Shown: positions 8,055 through 54,716 of the stretch, piece by piece
Layout: each line of letters starts with the position of its first letter
Position numbering within the stretch: position 1 is the stretch's first letter
NCBI GenBank assembly: GCA_013201395.1
Contig: JABMJD010000003.1
Span: forward strand, 62,001 to 126,000
Length of the DNA: 64,000 bases
Source of the DNA: Candidatus Syntrophopropionicum ammoniitolerans
GTDB lineage: Bacteria; Bacillota; Desulfotomaculia; Desulfotomaculales; Pelotomaculaceae
Direction of reading: 5' to 3'
Notes under the pieces: model-generated
The model's input: only the letters and a program-made list of their open reading frames with translations
Database searches by the model: none
Told to the model about the DNA's origin: nothing
Position numbers and translations under genes: made by a program

Positions 8055-11000
8055 TTATGCTTTTCTAATATTAACCAGAAAGGCCTTGTACTCCGGAACA
8101 GCAACGTTAGCATCGCCAATGAAGGGCGTTAGATTATTCCCAACATCCCCCTGGGATAACCCCGTGTAGCCCCAATGCCATGGTAACGATACAATTTCCA
8201 CAGGACTATCATTTACAATTAAAGGTCTCACAATCGGCAAAACGTTGGCCTTGCATTTTATTTCTGCCCGGGCACTGCTAACGATTATATCATCGCCGGC
8301 TTTTATACCTAAATTGGCAGCCAGGGTCGGTGATATGGTAGCAAATTGCTCCGGCATCAATTCCACCAGCCAGGGGCTGTTTCTCGTCCTGACTCCAGTT
8401 TGGTAATGCTCAATATAGTGGACAGTAGTAGCAACATAAGGGAATTCTTCACTGCCGGTTTCGGCCAGTTTAGAAAAAATGCCGTCCCATCTCATTGCCA
8501 TGGGGTTATTTTGCTGGCTACTAATCGGGTTTTTCACCGGACTTTCCACCGGTTCATAGTGCTCCGGCATCGGGCCCTCTTTTAACCCTGAGGGATTAAA
8601 GAAACGCCCTTGCCCCTCCGGCAGCATAATAAAGGGTGCGTTGGCAGTTACTTCAGGCGGTGAAGGTGCCTTTGTCACCGGGTTCACGATACCAAAGTCA
8701 GGCACATCGTTGGTAACCCATTTTGCTCCATCCCAGTAGATCAGGGGCTTATCCTTTTTCCAGGGCCGTCCGGCCGGGTCGGCTGAACAACGGTTATAAA
8801 CAATACGCCGGTTCAAAGGCCAGACAAAGGTCCACTTAGGATATACGTTAAGCCCGCTTTTGTCTTCAGTACCATGCCGTTTGGTGGCAGGGACTTTTAA
8901 CAACGGGTCTTGCTCCTGAGGATCTACATAATAGTAACCGGTATAAACCCATACCCCACAGGCTGTAGAGCCATCATCCTTGAGGTCACCAAACGTACCC
9001 AGGACCCGCCCGTCGGCTATATTATAGCCGTTAATTTCAATGGCTATTTTTTCTATATCCGGCTCATCGTTATCCTGTTGATCATAGTCCCAGGTTATGT
9101 TTAAAATGGGATCTGTGAATGCGCCGCCATCTTCATATTCTTTGCGGATAGCCTTGTACAACCGGTCGGCAATCCAAAGGTCACTTTTTGCCTGTCCGGG
9201 TGGTTCCACAGCCTTCCAGCGCCAGGGAATATGGCGCGCGCTATTTGTTCTGGTGCCTTCTTTTTCATAAATATGGGCTGCCGGCAGTAAGAATACTTCT
9301 GTATCTATTTCTGCCGGGTTTGCTCCCGGGCGCCGCCAGAAGGCAGCCGTTTCGTTCTCGAAAATATCGACACATACCATCCAATCCGCTTTCTCCAGAG
9401 CTTTGGCCTCATTAGAAGCGTCAGGCCCGGCTACAGATGGGTTTTCCGCCCAACAAAAGACACCCTTAATATGTCCTTCCTCCAGAGAGCCGTAGGAAGA
9501 CATGTGAGAGTGGTCTTTACCATCTGATTTAGGCAACCAATCAAAACAAAAGTCATTTTCCCTGGTTGCTTTATCGCCGTACCAGGCTTTAAGCAAACTG
9601 GCTACAAATTTAGGCGTATTGGACCAGTATCCCGTTTTGGGTGTTGTCACGTCCAGATAGTCTTGATACGTGGGGTGTTTAGTGGCATCAGGGACAGCAA
9701 GATAAGCTGTAATATTGTTCCAAAGCATCCCCATGTCGCAGGCACCCTGAACGTTAGATTGTCCCCGTTGCGGGTTTACACCGCCACCGGGCATACCCAC
9801 ATTACCCAGTAGGAGTTGAACCATGCAAGTTGCCCGTGTGTTTTGGGTACCATAACTATGTTGGGTGATCCCCAATACATAAATTAGGTTGCCGGCCACA
9901 TCCGGTTTTCCTGACTCACAGTAGGTAGAGTAAGCCTCCAGCAAAGTATCTTCCGGGGTCCCTGTGACATTACTTACGGTTTTTATGTCATAGCGGGAAA
10001 CATGCTTCTTCAGAATTTGCCAGACGCACTGAGGATCCTGCAGAGTGGGATCCTTTCTAATATTATCGCCGTCCTTTTGGTAGGCCCAACTTGCAGTATT
10101 GTAGACCAATTTGCCGTCCTTTTCCTCCAGGCCTGAGAAAAGTCCATCTTCAAAATGATAGTCAGGACTGATTAGGTAGGAAGCATTGGTATAGTTTTGC
10201 ACATATTCATGTTGGTAAAGATCATTTTCTATGGCATAATTCATTAAACCATATAGGAATGATATATCCGTACCCGGACGCAAGGGAACATAAATATCTG
10301 CCTGAGCTGCTGTTTTGGTAAATCTGGGGTCAACAACGATGATTTTGGCTCCCTTTCCCTTGGCTATGCCAATATGACGCATGGCCATTGGGTGAGATTC
10401 AGCCGGGTTGGAACCAATAATCAGGAACATGTCCGCATTTTGATAATCATTAAAGTTATTTGTCATTACTCCCCGACCAAATGAATTAGCCAGACCGGCT
10501 ACGGTGGGGGAGTGTCAGAGGCGGGCACAGTGATCAAGATCAACTACACCAAGTCCACCCCGCATCAATTTATTTATTATATAATCCTCTTCGTTGTTAA
10601 CATTAGCGCTGCCCATTTGGCAAATAGCCATGGTGCGGTTAACAGTAACGCCATTCTCATCTTTTTCTTCAAATGTTTCATCCCGGGTCTTTTTTACCCG
10701 CTTGGCAATTTCAGATAAGGCCCAGTCCCAGTCTTTTACCTCCCACTTGTCACTATTAGGGGCACGGTAAAGAACCTCCGTTAACCGCCCCGGATTGAGC
10801 ACGCGTTGACGGTTTTTATCTACAATTGTATAAACATCTGAAAGAGCTGTCCCCTTGGGACATAAGGCCCCTTCATTAATGGGGCTGTCAGGGTCCCCTT
10901 CAATATAAACCACCTTATCATCTTCAGAATAAACTATAGTAGTACAACCACATCCACAATAGGAACAGCCGGAGGAGGTTTCCTTGGTTTTCGTTATTTT

Positions 11001-11138
11001 TAAAGGACCAACATCATAACTAGGCAGGTTTTCACCCGCGGCAGCAGGTTTTGCACTGATTCCTTCAAAAAAAACCGTTCCAGCCGCGCCTATTCCCAAA
11101 TACTTAAAGAAATCACGGCGGCTAATACCTTTTTTCAT
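8055..11138 (-). CDS. fdnG: selenocysteine formate dehydrogenase, catalytic subunit (Tat-exported)
   Basis: A molybdopterin oxidoreductase of about 1027 residues that oxidises formate. Two open frames (8055..10466 and 10515..11138) are one gene: the frame continues through TGA at 10515..10517, reading DHCARL-Sec-HSPTVAGLANSFGRG, which aligns with E. coli FdnG around its Sec residue. A bacterial SECIS hairpin follows. The N-terminus has a twin-arginine signal (SRRDFFKYLG) and a [4Fe-4S] cysteine cluster (CSYCGCGC...CPKG). The body carries the MGD-binding segments. It is the last gene of the operon after the iron-sulfur and membrane subunits, so it should act outside the membrane and pass electrons inward. 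Whether it uses molybdenum or tungsten cannot be told. Confidence 0.93.
10480..10517 (-). promoter_or_regulatory. bacterial SECIS element of the formate dehydrogenase
   Basis: Directly after the UGA codon the message can form a stem UAGCC/GGCUA closed by the loop GGUCU. As I recall it, the E. coli fdhF element has its GGUCU apical loop at the same distance, 18 bases after UGA. This should recruit SelB and selenocysteyl-tRNA. The selenocysteine machinery genes are not in the window. Confidence 0.8.
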
Positions 11139-11241: not shown

Positions 11242-12414
11242 TTAGGCTTGGAAGCCTGTACCGGTTCCAATTGAGTGACCGCTGCCATGAACATATTCCT
11301 CTTTGGCCATAATTGGGAAGTTTTCAACAAAGAAACAATATGCCAGGACCAGGAAGCTCCACATACCCATTGTCATCAACCACTCCCAGATACTGGGGAA
11401 ATAGCTGCCTCCCATGGCTCCGGCCATACCTGTAAATACCACGTTTACCCGGTTGAATACAACCCCGACGACCACTAGTATGGAAGCTGTCAATACACCA
11501 CCTAGCTTGTTACGTACAGACGGCATAGCATACATGATAATTGGGAGGATAATAAACAAGATCATTTCTATTAGAAACATATTACTTTCAAAGGACCCAT
11601 TAAAGGCCATAGAAAACACACCGCGGTATACCAGATCAATTATTTTCACAATGAGATAAATGACCAGCATCCACAAGGTCACTTTTGTCAGGCTAGAGAA
11701 TATTGGCAATTCTGGTTCCCGCCCATATGTTCTAGCCGCAAGGGTCCCTTCAATGGTAACCATAGCGGGCCCAAGAAAGAAAGCCGACCAAACGAAGAAA
11801 AATGGGATGAGCATCGACCACCACAGCGGGTAAAGTCTATCAACAGCCACAATATAGAGAGAGCCGAGTGAGGACTGGTGCAGGGAAGGCAAGACTATGC
11901 CTAGAATTAACAAGAAAGGTAATGCACCGTGCAGTATCCTCTTGAGGCTCGGGAAATTGATCTTTTCAAAAACAATATCACCAAACTCCAGTACCTGCAC
12001 TGTTGTATAGATGGCTATGCACCAAAATACTTCAAATAACACTGAGTGATATCCCCAATAAAAGAAGGGGCGCCAGAAGTTGAACCAACGTCCAATATCC
12101 AGAAACAAACTGACCAGTGCTATGATATAGCCGAGCATAGAAGTCAAAAGAGCAGCCCGAACTATTGGTAGGTATTTATCCTTATGCAGCACGTGCACAA
12201 TTAAGGCAGTGCTGAAACCGCCACCTGCCAGGGCAATGCCGCAAAGCAAGTCAAAACCAATCCACAGACCCCAGGGCCATTCATCACTCAGATTGGTTAC
12301 AGCCCCCAGTCCGGATATAAAACGCCAAAGTGCAACTGCAGCAGCAATTCCCACCAGCAGTATCAATAACTTTCTAAAACCAGTCAACCTGAAACTAAAG
12401 CGTCCAAATTGCAT
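11242..12414 (-). CDS. HybB/NrfD-type membrane subunit of formate dehydrogenase
   Basis: A 390-residue integral membrane protein with about ten hydrophobic segments, of the NrfD/PsrC/HybB family. It resembles HybB of hydrogenase-2 more than the haem-b FdnI subunit, and no pattern of haem ligands like FdnI is apparent. Family members pass electrons between a periplasm-side iron-sulfur protein and menaquinone and may move protons. It lies between the iron-sulfur and catalytic subunit genes, so the enzyme should link formate oxidation to the quinone pool. Confidence 0.85.
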   Translation of the reverse strand: MQFGRFSFRLTGFRKLLILLVGIAAAVALWRFISGLGAVTNLSDEWPWGLWIGFDLLCGIALAGGGFSTALIVHVLHKDKYLPIVRAALLTSMLGYIIALVSLFLDIGRWFNFWRPFFYWGYHSVLFEVFWCIAIYTTVQVLEFGDIVFEKINFPSLKRILHGALPFLLILGIVLPSLHQSSLGSLYIVAVDRLYPLWWSMLIPFFFVWSAFFLGPAMVTIEGTLAARTYGREPELPIFSSLTKVTLWMLVIYLIVKIIDLVYRGVFSMAFNGSFESNMFLIEMILFIILPIIMYAMPSVRNKLGGVLTASILVVVGVVFNRVNVVFTGMAGAMGGSYFPSIWEWLMTMGMWSFLVLAYCFFVENFPIMAKEEYVHGSGHSIGTGTGFQA

Positions 12415-12444: not shown

Positions 12445-13278
12445 CTACTTATTGTCAACAGGCTCAAACAATTCTGACTCCTCAATATGCTCCGCACGGC
12501 GCTTGGTGTAGGCGCGCATTATAGTTAGAACAGCACCCCATCCAAAGAATAGAGCAGGGGTCCATTTAAGCACATCCCAGGTTAGGGAAGGTATTGACCT
12601 AGTGGTGACAGGTTTGCCGAAAGCTTCGGTCCTGAAACCTATTTTGTCAAAGGGAACGTCAGAAATATAAAGCCACGAAGTACCACCATATTCCTTTTCA
12701 CCGTATACATGCTTTACATACCCTGGAATTGTATTAATTCTTTCCCAGGCCTCCGCCAATAGTTCATCCCTATCCCCATATTTCAACGCACCCGTTAGGC
12801 AGGCTGAAACACAGGCCGGCTCCATGTCCTCCTTCATGCGGTCGTAACAAAAACGGCATTTCAACACATAAGGAAAAGCCTTGTCCCACTGGAATGAAGG
12901 CACCCCAAAAGGGCAAGCGATCATGCAGTAGCGACAGCCGACACAGTAATCCTTATTAAGTTCTGTTGGCTTGTAAATTACTGCCCCTTCTTTTGTTTTA
13001 ACAAAGGAATGAGTAAAACATGCTGACTCACAGGCAGGTTCGAGACAATGCATACATTGTCTTTTTACGAAGCGCCATTTGAGTTTCTGTCCTTCTTCTT
13101 CGATTAGATAATAATTTACTTTGGTCCAGGTATTGGCACTCAACTTCTCTGGGTTGTCCCAGCTGTTGGAAAACTCGCTCTTATCGGCCGGCAAATCGTT
13201 CCATGATTTGCACGCAACCTGGCAGCTGCGGCAACCGATACACCTGGTAATGTCCACCAGGACACCTTTAGACATCAT
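12445..13278 (-). CDS. formate dehydrogenase iron-sulfur subunit
   Basis: A 277-residue ferredoxin-like subunit with four cysteine groups for [4Fe-4S] clusters: CIGCRSCQVAC near residue 12, CMHCLEPACESAC, CVGCRYCMIACPFG and CRFCYDRM...CVSAC. A C-terminal hydrophobic helix (TWDVLKWTPALFFGWGAVL) anchors it, as in FdnH. It has no signal of its own, so it should be exported as a complex with the Tat-signal catalytic subunit. It is the first gene of the fdh operon; GGAGGTGG precedes the paired ATG codons. A cofactor riboswitch lies just upstream. Confidence 0.9.
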   Translation of the reverse strand: MMSKGVLVDITRCIGCRSCQVACKSWNDLPADKSEFSNSWDNPEKLSANTWTKVNYYLIEEEGQKLKWRFVKRQCMHCLEPACESACFTHSFVKTKEGAVIYKPTELNKDYCVGCRYCMIACPFGVPSFQWDKAFPYVLKCRFCYDRMKEDMEPACVSACLTGALKYGDRDELLAEAWERINTIPGYVKHVYGEKEYGGTSWLYISDVPFDKIGFRTEAFGKPVTTRSIPSLTWDVLKWTPALFFGWGAVLTIMRAYTKRRAEHIEESELFEPVDNK

Positions 13279-13327
13279 TCCACCTCCGGTTTCTGCTTGG
13301 ATTTAAGATACTCGGGCATTTTACCTT

Positions 13328-14768: not shown

Positions 14769-15563
14769 TTAATCAACCTGTTGATTGAAATAACCCTCCC
14801 GCATAGCCAGGATGTCCAACTGTACCGTATTAATGTCTTCCCAGAAAGGCATTAGCTTTTTGCCGCCCATTTTGGCTCCATCTACGGTTTTAATGTAGCC
14901 CAGGCATTTGTCACAATAATAAACCCTGTATTTTCCCATTCCTTCCACTGTGAAAAATTGTGATTCCTTACTTGCACAATGAGGGCAACCCAGACGATAA
15001 AAACGCCATTTCGTTTCACAAAGACCACAATATAGGTAACGTTTGCCACTTTCCTTCTCCAGCAGTGCCAAAACGGGTTTGGCGCCACAGACAGGACAAT
15101 GCCCCCTCATCCATGTTTCAGAATCAAAAATGGCCTTTACATTGTTGGCATACTGCCGCAGATATGGCCTGGTAGTATGGTTCAATAAAAATCCAAAGGT
15201 TTCAGGGAACAGGTCTATTTTTAAATGTGAGAGCACATTTTCCCCCGGGATAAATGCCTTGGCGGCAAATTCTTCCCGGTCAACCGGTGCAACAGGCAAA
15301 GCAGACTCTATCTGCTTTATTTCCTCAGCTAGTTCAGGCAGGTGTTCCTTGATTATACCGGCCACCTGTTTCATGGTAGTAAAAAAGTCTTCAGTTTTAA
15401 CCTGGGGTGGACATATAGCAGCTAACGGCAGTGTCCTCTCTTGCCTTTGTTTCAAAGCGGCCTCATCAGGCATGTTGAAAGTTACGGCGTCGTCCTTTAC
15501 TGTAATCTGCAAAAATTTCTGATGATAGTCCCCTAGCATATCCTGTAGTGACGGAGTTTGCAT
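14769..15563 (-). CDS. fdhE: formate dehydrogenase accessory protein FdhE
   Basis: A 264-residue FdhE-family protein. It has four CxxC pairs in its central and C-terminal part (HCPVCGAKP, YCGLCETKW, GCPHCASKE, YCDKCLGY), matching the rubredoxin-like iron-binding sites of FdhE, which is needed for maturation of respiratory formate dehydrogenases. The N-terminal 110 residues are helical and variable, as in the family. First in a minus-strand series fdhE, tatC, then the structural genes, separated from them by gaps of about 270 and 450 bases, so it may have its own promoter. Confidence 0.88.
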   Translation of the reverse strand: MQTPSLQDMLGDYHQKFLQITVKDDAVTFNMPDEAALKQRQERTLPLAAICPPQVKTEDFFTTMKQVAGIIKEHLPELAEEIKQIESALPVAPVDREEFAAKAFIPGENVLSHLKIDLFPETFGFLLNHTTRPYLRQYANNVKAIFDSETWMRGHCPVCGAKPVLALLEKESGKRYLYCGLCETKWRFYRLGCPHCASKESQFFTVEGMGKYRVYYCDKCLGYIKTVDGAKMGGKKLMPFWEDINTVQLDILAMREGYFNQQVD

Positions 15564-15814: not shown

Positions 15815-16597
15815 TTGGACATATCAAGGTTAACAGTCAAGGAAATCAAAGAATTAGCCGCCGGGCCAAAAGGAGCCGGCCCCGAATTCAGGCAGGCCCT
15901 GGCGGAGGACAAAAGAATAGGAGTCCTGGAAATATACAGGAAGCTATTGCGTACTGAAACGGCCATAATATATGAGACCAGGCGTCTGACAAAAATGTTT
16001 ACATATGAAAAAGACCTAAAAAAAAAGGGGTGCTATCCTATTGCGGGTGTAGATGAAGCGGGAAGGGGCCCCTTGGCCGGACCGGTGATAGCTGCCGCCG
16101 TTATTCTGCCTGAAGAAGAAGCCCCGGTTGGCCTCAATGACTCCAAAAAACTCACACCCCTCAGGCGGGAGGCATTGGCCTGCCAAATCAAAAAAACTGC
16201 ACAAGCATGGTCCATTGGCATTTCATCCGTAGAAGAGATTTTTGCTGATAATATCCACCAGGCCAGCCTAATAGCCATGCTCAGGGCTGTTTTGGGGCTC
16301 ACTCTAAAGCCTGCCCATGTGCTGGTAGATGGTTTCAAAATTAAACATCTGGCCTGTCCCCAGACACCCATTGTCGGGGGGGATGTTTTATGTGCTTCCA
16401 TAGCAGCAGCCTCAATCCTGGCTAAGGTTACCAGGGACGGTATAATGGATTCCTTCCATAGTATTTATCCACAATACGGCTTTGACCACCATAAAGGCTA
16501 CGGTACACAGGAACACCTGGAGGCCCTTTCCATATACGGACCATGTCCCATTCACAGAACAGGCTACAAACCTGTGCAGGAATGCCTGCGGCTATGA
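15815..16597 (+). CDS. rnhB: ribonuclease HII
   Basis: A 260-residue type 2 RNase H that removes misincorporated ribonucleotides and RNA from RNA-DNA hybrids. The catalytic core starts at GVDEAGRGPLAGPV with its Asp-Glu pair, followed by DSKKL and VDGFKI, which supply the other acidic residues. The N-terminal 70 residues (MDISRLTVKEIKELAAG...) form the extra domain typical of Bacillus-type RNase HII. TTG start at 15815 with GGGAG upstream. Usually this gene follows rbgA on the same strand; here it faces the other way and is separated by moeA and tatA. Confidence 0.93.
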   Translation: MDISRLTVKEIKELAAGPKGAGPEFRQALAEDKRIGVLEIYRKLLRTETAIIYETRRLTKMFTYEKDLKKKGCYPIAGVDEAGRGPLAGPVIAAAVILPEEEAPVGLNDSKKLTPLRREALACQIKKTAQAWSIGISSVEEIFADNIHQASLIAMLRAVLGLTLKPAHVLVDGFKIKHLACPQTPIVGGDVLCASIAAASILAKVTRDGIMDSFHSIYPQYGFDHHKGYGTQEHLEALSIYGPCPIHRTGYKPVQECLRL

Positions 16598-16642: not shown

Positions 16643-16715
16643 GTGTATTGCATATTTAGGAAATATAATCAAAATGCTATATATTCTTATAGTAATAAAA
16701 TTTAACTGCTATCTG

Positions 16716-16815
16716 CTCTCCGATCCGGTTAAAACCTATATCTACAACAGGACATGGTTGCCGGACGTCAGGGTGCCCTGGGAAACCGGGTCGCCTTCCA
16801 TTGTGAAAAGGGGAG
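16716..16815 (+). ncRNA. putative Moco/Tuco riboswitch before moeA
   Basis: Closing stem CUCUCC (16716..16721) pairs with GGGGAG (16810..16815). Inside are GGACAUGGUUGCCGGACGU, AGGGUGC, a hairpin CCUGG-GAAA-CCGGG and UCGCCUUCC. The sequence matches, element by element, the aptamer before the fdh operon, and the gene downstream makes molybdenum cofactor. The Moco motif is known upstream of such genes. Whether it is the molybdenum or tungsten form depends on the P3 stem, which I could not settle. Confidence 0.8.
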
Positions 16816-16834
16816 TTGGACCCTGGGTTTGTCG

Positions 16835-16882
16835 ACCGGGCCAGCTTTGCTATGCAATGCTGGTCCGGTACTGTGTTTTTTG
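16835..16882 (+). terminator. expression-platform terminator of the moeA riboswitch
   Basis: An 11-base-pair stem, ACCGGGCCAGC (16835..16845) with GCTGGTCCGGT (16859..16869, one G-U pair), followed by ACTGTGTTTTTT. It lies between the aptamer and moeA, so cofactor binding probably controls transcription read-through. Confidence 0.75.
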
Positions 16883-16945: not shown

Positions 16946-18184
16946 ATGGGTGATGACTTGATTACATCTTTTGAAAATGCAAAAAAAAACATATTAAACT
17001 CCGTAAAGCCACTTGGATCTGAATTTATTCCCATTACAGCAGCCTATAATCGTGTTCTCTATGAGGATATTGTTTCAGAAATCATGGTCCCCCCCGCAGA
17101 TGATTCTGCCAGGGATGGTTATGCAATAATAGCGGCAGATACCCGGGGAGCAACAAAAAGCAACCCCATCAGGCTGCAGGTTGTGGGAGAAATACGGGCC
17201 GGTGAATCCGCCGCAGGCAAAAAGGTAACACCGGGGACTGCAATCAGAATAATGACGGGTGCACCAATACCACAAAACACAGATTCGGTAGTCCAATTTG
17301 AGGATACTGACGAAAAAAATGGCCATGTAGACATTTTTGTTGAAGTCAAGCCCGGCCAAAATTACAGACCGGCAGGAGAAACAATTAGAAAAGGAGATAC
17401 TGTTCTGCTGCGAGGCAAACGCCTGAACTCAGCAGACATCGGCATCCTGGCCTCACTAAATTACAGTTTGGTAAAGGTGTATAAACAGCCGGTTGTAGCC
17501 ATCATTTCCACCGGCGATGAACTGGCTGATCCAGGCGCAGATATTAAAAGTGGCCACATTAGGAACGCCAACGCCTATACCATATATACCGAGGTGAAAA
17601 AATGTAACGCCATTCCTGAATATATGGGTATAGCTAAAGATACTCTAACGGATGTAAAGGAAATTTTTTTGAAAGCCTTAAAGGCTAATGTTGTCATCTC
17701 AACAGGCGGTGTATCAAAGGGAAGGTATGACTTTGTTAAGGATATTTATACTGCCCTGGGTATCGAAATTCAATTTGAAAAGGTAAAGATTAGACCTGGC
17801 AAACCATTTACCTTTGGCAAGAAAGGGGACAAACTGTTCTTTGGTTTACCTGGAAATACTGTCCCTACCTTAACATCTTTTATCCAATTCGTCAGGCCCG
17901 CGCTCCTCAGCCTGATGGGGGCAAAACAATTGGAAAAACCCGTTGTAAATGCCACCCTGGAAGAGGATATAAATAATAACTCCGACAGTGTTAATCTTGT
18001 CAGAGGCTATTTTACAATAAAAAACAATGAATTCTATGTTACATCCACAGGTGGGCAAAAACCATCCATGTTACGCTCCATGAGTGGCGCTAATTGCCTG
18101 ATCATCGTTCCGGGCAAAATTGTCAAGCTAAGGGCGGGTGAAAAGGTGCCAATCCAATTAATTGATCATGAAGAGATATATTAG
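16946..18184 (+). CDS. moeA: molybdopterin molybdenumtransferase MoeA
   Basis: A 412-residue MoeA/gephyrin-E domain protein that inserts molybdate (or tungstate) into adenylated molybdopterin. Family signatures visible: PPADDSARDGYAI near residue 50, RIMTGAPIPQNTDSVVQFED, ISTGDEL, STGGVSKGRYDFVK and LPGNTVPTLTSF. All four MoeA domains appear present and the length is normal. It is convergent with tatA and sits behind a cofactor riboswitch with terminator, so it is probably switched off when cofactor is plentiful. Its closeness to the formate dehydrogenase genes fits cofactor supply for that enzyme. Confidence 0.93.
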   Translation: MGDDLITSFENAKKNILNSVKPLGSEFIPITAAYNRVLYEDIVSEIMVPPADDSARDGYAIIAADTRGATKSNPIRLQVVGEIRAGESAAGKKVTPGTAIRIMTGAPIPQNTDSVVQFEDTDEKNGHVDIFVEVKPGQNYRPAGETIRKGDTVLLRGKRLNSADIGILASLNYSLVKVYKQPVVAIISTGDELADPGADIKSGHIRNANAYTIYTEVKKCNAIPEYMGIAKDTLTDVKEIFLKALKANVVISTGGVSKGRYDFVKDIYTALGIEIQFEKVKIRPGKPFTFGKKGDKLFFGLPGNTVPTLTSFIQFVRPALLSLMGAKQLEKPVVNATLEEDINNNSDSVNLVRGYFTIKNNEFYVTSTGGQKPSMLRSMSGANCLIIVPGKIVKLRAGEKVPIQLIDHEEIY

Positions 18185-54490: not shown

Positions 54491-54548
54491 CACAACATTC
54501 GGAAAGACAAAGCTAGCCAATATGAAATCCTCAAGAATACTAGCCTTT

Positions 54549-54685
54549 ACCTTCTTCCATCCAGACTATACTGTCGGCTCCGGATTTAGACCGGATCTGC
54601 CCATATGGGCTCGCGGGCTTGGCTCCAGGCTGAAAACAGCCTGCTACCACACCGCCGGTAGGGAATTACACCCGTCCCTGAAGGT
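54549..54685 (-). ncRNA. FMN riboswitch (RFN element)
   Basis: On minus the closing stem ACCTTC / GAAGGT encloses the strongly conserved RFN blocks: GGGACGGGTGTAATTCCC, CCGGCGGT, AGCCCGCGAGCCC and GGATGGAAGAAGG. It precedes ribD. Bound FMN should favour the terminator downstream. Confidence 0.95.
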
Positions 54686-54716
54686 TTCGCTATTAATTTA
54701 TTGCTTTGATAAGCTA

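Follow-up and report, generated by a model that had tools for sequence, protein, structure and literature searches.

The moeA leader of Candidatus Syntrophopropionicum ammoniitolerans carries a genuine riboswitch of a known family, and the analysis supports an OFF platform in it. With a probability of roughly 0.77, we propose that it is a Moco/Tuco riboswitch lacking P3, which would act as a transcriptional OFF switch through the exchange of an antiterminator for a terminator. Our computations show family membership, the absence of P3, two mutually exclusive structures that relatives preserve, and recurrence of the platform in other genomes, where it precedes moeA and transport genes; from these patterns we infer ligand binding, termination in the cell and the OFF direction. 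Throughout, the window is the whole stretch of 64,000 nucleotides that was analysed.

The moeA leader and its expression platform

An Rfam covariance search matched positions 16706-16829 (+) of the window to RF01055 with 58.9 bits (E 1.4e-11, model positions 1-135). A second copy, at 13438-13314 (-), scored 68.7 bits and precedes formate dehydrogenase (fdh) genes; both copies exceed the RF01055 gathering score of 36 bits and are full-length over the model. A sequence-only reading had described a Moco/Tuco-type riboswitch with a terminator before moeA, in a span (16716-16882) that takes in the terminator and the greater part of the aptamer, and had paired it with an fdh copy 3.3 kb away. These claims were borne out, the two aptamers lying about 3.3 kb apart on opposite strands. 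The regulated gene moeA (molybdopterin molybdotransferase; 16946-18184, +; profile matches MoeA_N, MoCF_biosynth and MoeA_C) starts 116 nt 3' of the aptamer, which places the RNA in the 5' leader of a gene related to Moco/Tuco. According to the Rfam structure line, P5 (16797-16806, +) has the outer pair U16797-A16806, where the Rfam consensus is C-G. The GAAA loop is present in P4, and the P2 receptor, judged by eye, is a variant (CCUAU...CAUGG). The sequence-only reading had named P3 as the stem that separates Moco from Tuco forms; the P3 positions are deleted in the RF01055 alignments of both window copies.

Folding and comparison with relatives place a terminator hairpin at 16835-16869 (+), with an 11-bp outer stem (ACCGGGCCAGC...GCUGGUCCGGU), followed by a U-run (U6; 16876-16881, +) that starts 6 nt past the stem. 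This gap is non-canonical, and a terminator consensus scan did not list the site. The same two approaches predict an antiterminator (16799-16859, +) composed of the 3' half of the aptamer P5/P1 and the 5' arm and loop of the terminator. The 61-nt platform folds with -26.9 kcal/mol, and equal stability was reached in 0/1000 dinucleotide shuffles. The energy of the 61-nt antiterminator using the aptamer 3' half (CAUUGUGAAAAGGGGAGUUGG...) was -25.3 to -25.6 kcal/mol and that of the terminator stem -25.8 kcal/mol. By prediction and comparison, the two structures share bases and are mutually exclusive. In the ligand-free state, the aptamer 3' half (P5, junction and P1 3' strand) would join the hairpin's 5' arm and loop in the antiterminator, and moeA would be transcribed. 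Binding of a Mo- or W-pterin cofactor would close P1 and P5 and free the hairpin, so that transcription would stop before moeA. The switch would thereby provide end-product feedback on metal insertion.

For the comparison we aligned 39 of the 48 distinct U-A segments, leaving out the leaders with other platforms (L180-L182, L204-L207 and L224) and, of the two U-A copies in L118, the first one. The terminator paired in 79.4% of cells (0/500 shuffles), with 95.2% in the outer stem and only 59.2% in the inner helix. For the antiterminator, which was represented by 23 pairs from the fold of one relative (L104), a single-member source that favours itself over slid versions, 84.7% of cells paired versus 40.6-54.5% when slid, and 5/500 shuffles were as high. 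Both-sided changes were detected in four of seven outer-stem pairs and in 14 cells of the terminator, above the shuffles (0/500). The antiterminator showed such changes in 12 cells (23/500 shuffles); counted by pairs there were 6, which is not above the shuffles (mean 5.2, 218/500). In the window, the loop of the core/platform duplex has lost two bases relative to the consensus. Given the pairing of a competing antiterminator and of the terminator outer stem in these leaders, the cofactor would most likely switch moeA off.

We also compared the fit of aptamer cores to their own and to swapped platforms, with identical cores and shortened leaders removed. Cores of C-G leaders with terminators (n=72) fitted their own platforms better (-13.22 vs -11.55 kcal/mol, permutation p 0.0002). 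The U-A set yielded no such gain (-15.29 vs -15.14 kcal/mol, p 0.32) because its platforms are near-identical. The core/platform duplex of the window alone was not unusual, 118/1000 dinucleotide shuffles being as stable, and the argument for the mechanism therefore rests on the comparison with relatives.

The rnhB gene ends at 16597, just 5' of the moeA leader, and the moeA copy scores below the fdh copy; both points would suit a hairpin that merely ends the rnhB transcript next to a decayed aptamer. We consider this very improbable, as aptamer and platform are kept in a syntenic relative (G104/L035) and both terminator and antiterminator recur in other leaders. U-A aptamers are also found before MoeA_N proteins in a second family of the order, where four genomes show the arrangement (L175, L176, L178, L201). 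Within the family, a regex scan of 30 fetched MoeA_N loci (73 rows listed) found the aptamer at only two, in the window and in the near relative G104; aptamer control of moeA is therefore rare in the family.

The fdh leader, the third copy and the metal

Like the moeA copy, the fdh aptamer lacks P3; its outer P5 pair is C-G (C13347-G13337). About 45 nt past P1 lies the Shine-Dalgarno (SD) sequence GGAGGTGG (13280-13287, -) of the first fdh gene. Profile matches identify this gene as the iron-sulfur subunit (12445-13278, -) and the others as an NrfD-like membrane subunit (11242-12414, -), a formate dehydrogenase-N alpha subunit (8055-11138, -) and an FdhE-like accessory protein (14769-15563, -). 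Translation of the alpha subunit gene revealed a single TGA in frame, at residue 208 (DHCARLUHSPTV), which agrees with selenocysteine. No terminator was seen in the fdh leader, and this copy probably acts on translation.

The P1 5' strand and CCUCC of the core take up part of the SD bases in the free leader; the unpaired probability of the SD was 0.04 in the free fold versus 0.54 with the aptamer set apart, a result that depends on the folded stretch (0.47 vs 0.48 with 30 extra bases). The same treatment of 27 SD-proximal C-G leaders increased SD opening by more than 0.1 in 12 and decreased it in 1. The fdh copy is thus perhaps an ON switch, as the folds weakly suggest, and one cofactor might then have opposite outputs in the window, turning off its synthesis at moeA and turning on the translation of an enzyme that uses it at fdh. 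We find this rather doubtful: besides the effect of the stretch folded, the coding start accounts for about half of the SD pairing, and the conserved CCUCC core can pair with any GGAGG. A leader peptide in the fdh leader, with the SD inside P1 and a stop overlapping the start codon, was rejected because the near relative G104 has ATA in place of the peptide's ATG. The P4 3' strand might also pair with a conserved GCGCAC that precedes the SD of Tat-type fdh genes, but this idea was dropped, no covariation being apparent by eye.

A search of the whole genome gave three RF01055 copies in total. The third (G000:C3:52192-52311) is, like the moeA copy, of the U-A form and is followed by a formate/nitrite-type transporter (TIGR00790, 200.2 bits, which does not reach the cut-off of 232.3) and a formate dehydrogenase. 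The latter is of the NADH type; its frame is broken in two after DHCART, as a selenocysteine codon would be expected to cause. The window also holds an FMN riboswitch (54545-54689, -; 108.8 bits in Rfam).

In the available text of Regulski et al. 2008 (PMC2408646), P3-less forms were assigned to Tuco by gene association. Among 166 aptamers of the family, 162 are 115-126 nt long and four are longer. Of these four, and in the whole family set, a clear P3 hairpin, judged by eye, was seen in one copy, at G092:C144:10327-10467 (L140), before a fibronectin-type-III protein; genome G092 has 23 RF01055 matches. Profile searches of the genome that holds the window found neither an AOR nor a TupA match, absences that are soft because the assembly is 90.9% complete. 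The sole molybdate/tungstate-type operon found there, on contig C7, encodes an ATPase with 440.3 bits against a WtpC cut-off of 440 and a binding protein with a modA match of 70.2 bits. The sequence-only reading had pointed to tungstate or molybdate transporters that might carry the same leader. None of the three RF01055 copies is on C7, and in this genome the transporter operon has no such leader; relatives do show the arrangement. TupA-like matches, all below the model cut-off of 400 bits, occur in 18 of 25 family genomes, each with one TupA-like operon behind an RF01055 leader, and three extra TupA-like matches in G086, G087 and G089 (L226-L228) have no leader.

Sub-forms of the aptamer and their tandems

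The outer P5 pair was C-G in 135, U-A in 27, C/A in two, A/A in one and U/G in one of the 166 family aptamers. These come from 24 of 25 genomes and comprise at least 150 family matches listed (of ~244 counted) plus extra genus matches, with weak matches under-represented. The 3' member of the pair, here called y, was nearly binary among distinct aptamers, being A in 30/30 and G in 127/127 (157 of the 166 matches; 158 distinct minus one U-G). A strict U-A pattern was detected in 27/113 genomes of the order, in four families, and the strict C-G pattern in 84/113; a pattern search at class level drew on the identical 113 genomes and yielded nothing further. In a sample of the phylum, the strict U-A pattern occurred in 6/398 genomes, three of them outside the order in two families, and the reversed control pattern in 0; the out-of-order loci were confirmed as RF01055 by Rfam. 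A tree with the two pair columns removed still grouped the forms, with 6 changes against a shuffled mean of 28 (0/500) and many unresolved forks.

By motif classes, a CCGGGC-type platform accompanies 25/30 y=A aptamers and a CUUUGUCC type 52/136 y=G aptamers. Three U-A aptamers have the CUUUGUCC-type platform, so the link between sub-form and platform is strong but not obligatory. U-A leaders are alike as a whole unit. Leaders near a start codon were in weak excess in the C-G form (31/127 vs 2/30 for U-A, p 0.044).

Mixed tandems on the same strand numbered 23, a union of successive scans (10 + 6 + 4 + 3) rather than of one uniform scan, and the C-G aptamer came first in all 23. They fall into roughly a dozen genus-by-operon groups and are not 23 independent events. 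A first set of 19 pairs included nine same-form pairs (8 C-G and 1 U-A), and the regex scan, which missed several tandems given by the covariance model, added two further C-G pairs. Partner identity in this set was 59-71% in mixed (n=10) and 84-100% in same-form pairs (n=9). Each U-A partner of the 10 mixed pairs was 86-95% identical to a y=A element from a different genome, closer than to its own neighbour. Judged from these identities, same-form tandems look like local duplicates, and mixed ones do not. Eleven tandem loci were re-scanned and all hold aptamers; nine of the loci absent from the first covariance listing were confirmed. The second aptamers of three tandem loci (g2) have the core CCUUCC...GAAAAG and are U-A by the regex scan. 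Among the mixed tandems, one (G101:C33, L194) has 402 nt between its cores, and another (G096, L103) has a c-di-GMP-I aptamer between its two members. In each of the 12 operons that contain a pair of TupA-like genes, the last aptamer is of the y=A kind. The six single-TupA operons have C-G only (G100, G101, G108), U-A only (G098, G099) or both (G109).

The sequence-only reading had tied the moeA and fdh copies to one signal. Both do belong to RF01055, but they represent two separable sub-forms (U-A at moeA, C-G at fdh), and a common signal is doubtful because these sister forms stand next to each other in other leaders without being local duplicates. Possibly, the C-G and U-A forms each recognise a ligand of their own (such as Wco and Moco, or different nucleotide forms) and mixed tandems are two-input gates; on the sequence patterns we rate the odds as somewhat against this. 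Alternatively, and to us about an even chance, both forms read the same cofactor, the U-A pair only tuning affinity or the kinetics of folding to a terminator platform that is rich in GC and spreads as one unit, and tandems sharpen the response. The near-binary y and the grouping of the forms in the tree without the pair columns favour separate ligands. The association of each sub-form with a platform type and the likeness of U-A leaders as units argue for tuning, whereas the three U-A aptamers on the other platform type weaken it. A fixed C-G-first order is not needed if the ligand is the same, and the low identity of mixed partners compared with same-form ones also speaks for different ligands, although the mixed tandems are not independent. 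Likewise, the y=A aptamer that closes each two-TupA operon fits a difference in ligand, but the single-TupA operons follow no clean rule, both forms precede formate dehydrogenases and the C-G excess near start codons is weak. Judging by a primer printed in PMC2408646, apparently for E. coli moaA, the Moco-responding RNA of E. coli has C-G at the outer P5 pair; most P3-less RNAs here have C-G as well, and this too counts against different ligands. Tuning is further favoured by the listing of Moco and Wco tandems as same-ligand systems in the available text of a 2022 review of tandem riboswitches (PMC9481103). Because sub-form is linked to platform type, we regard platform or affinity/kinetic tuning as at least as likely as different ligands for the sub-forms.

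The AOR cofactor is not known to carry GMP. AOR genes also carry C-G aptamers (L098), and the idea that the C-G form reads a GMP-bearing cofactor was dropped for this reason.

Downstream genes and relation to known riboswitches

Pfam and NCBIfam matches of similarity-cluster representatives, rather than a gene-by-gene scan, name the genes downstream of family aptamers as TupA-like binding proteins, formate dehydrogenases, [NiFe] and [FeFe] hydrogenases, S-layer-domain proteins, proteins with the PF09819 permease domain and cysteine-rich FeS proteins, the last presumably of the HdrD type. A protein with the PF09819 (ABC_cobalt) permease domain recurs after aptamers (L168:865-1926, L167:903-1970, L186:614-1171, L158:5746-6312), in one case with a weak match to a molybdopterin-binding domain, and is a candidate transporter of Mo, W or pterin. 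In two families, mixed tandems are followed by genes for S-layer-domain proteins (L070, L181), and other surface-type proteins with Big_5 and cohesin (L127) or PKD (L172) domains follow aptamers; such proteins are unexpected targets for a cofactor switch. Hydrogenase genes follow aptamers in L118, L160 and L185 ([FeFe]) and in L103 and L155 ([NiFe]), which suggests that cofactor supply may switch between hydrogen and formate enzymes. In L103 (233-646; G096:C187), a C-G aptamer (233-355), a c-di-GMP-I aptamer (366-456) and a U-A aptamer (528-646) stand in series before a [NiFe] hydrogenase small-subunit gene, and this leader may combine cofactor and second-messenger signals. A lone C-G aptamer (L282, G094:C25) lies downstream of a mobB-like gene and adjoins an integrase-like gene, both named by eye; this is possibly a disrupted operon.

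Somewhat below even odds, in our estimate, is the wider proposal that P3-less aptamers form two sister classes, with C-G or U-A outer P5 pairs, that read different pterin cofactors, and that C-G-first tandems in front of transporters, hydrogenases, formate dehydrogenases and surface proteins act as two-input OFF gates. If true, the cofactor-making moeA and the cofactor-using fdh operon of the window would answer to different ligands, and the arrangement would also show how these anaerobes adjust the uptake of metal and their formate and hydrogen enzymes to each other. How Moco-family RNAs discriminate between Mo and W cofactors has been a question since 2008, and the available text of PMC2408646 describes the ligands as not stable enough for standard binding assays. 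One covarying pair that separates two aptamer classes offers a concrete residue to mutate, and natural leaders with one of each form in series are ready-made test constructs. The openly accessible literature searched, including PMC2408646, PMC9481103 and PMC3766115 in their available main text, contains no mention of the outer-P5 split.

With the Moco RNA motif (RF01055, PMC2408646), the aptamers described here have in common the architecture, the P4 GAAA loop and the CCUNCC and AAAGG core, as well as a context of Moco synthesis and transport genes, platforms with terminators or SD sequences, and tandems. The moeA copy differs in its U-A outer P5 pair, in place of the consensus C-G, and in the absence of P3. 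That absence, in both window copies, is shared with the P3-lacking Tuco/Wco group, whereas the genome encodes a WtpC-like ATPase but has no match to TupA or AOR. PMC9481103 (available text) already describes tandem Wco riboswitches ahead of hydrogenase genes, and like those described here they are Moco-family aptamers in series with hydrogenase genes downstream. There they are listed as same-ligand systems; in contrast, most of our tandems mix two sub-forms in a fixed order.
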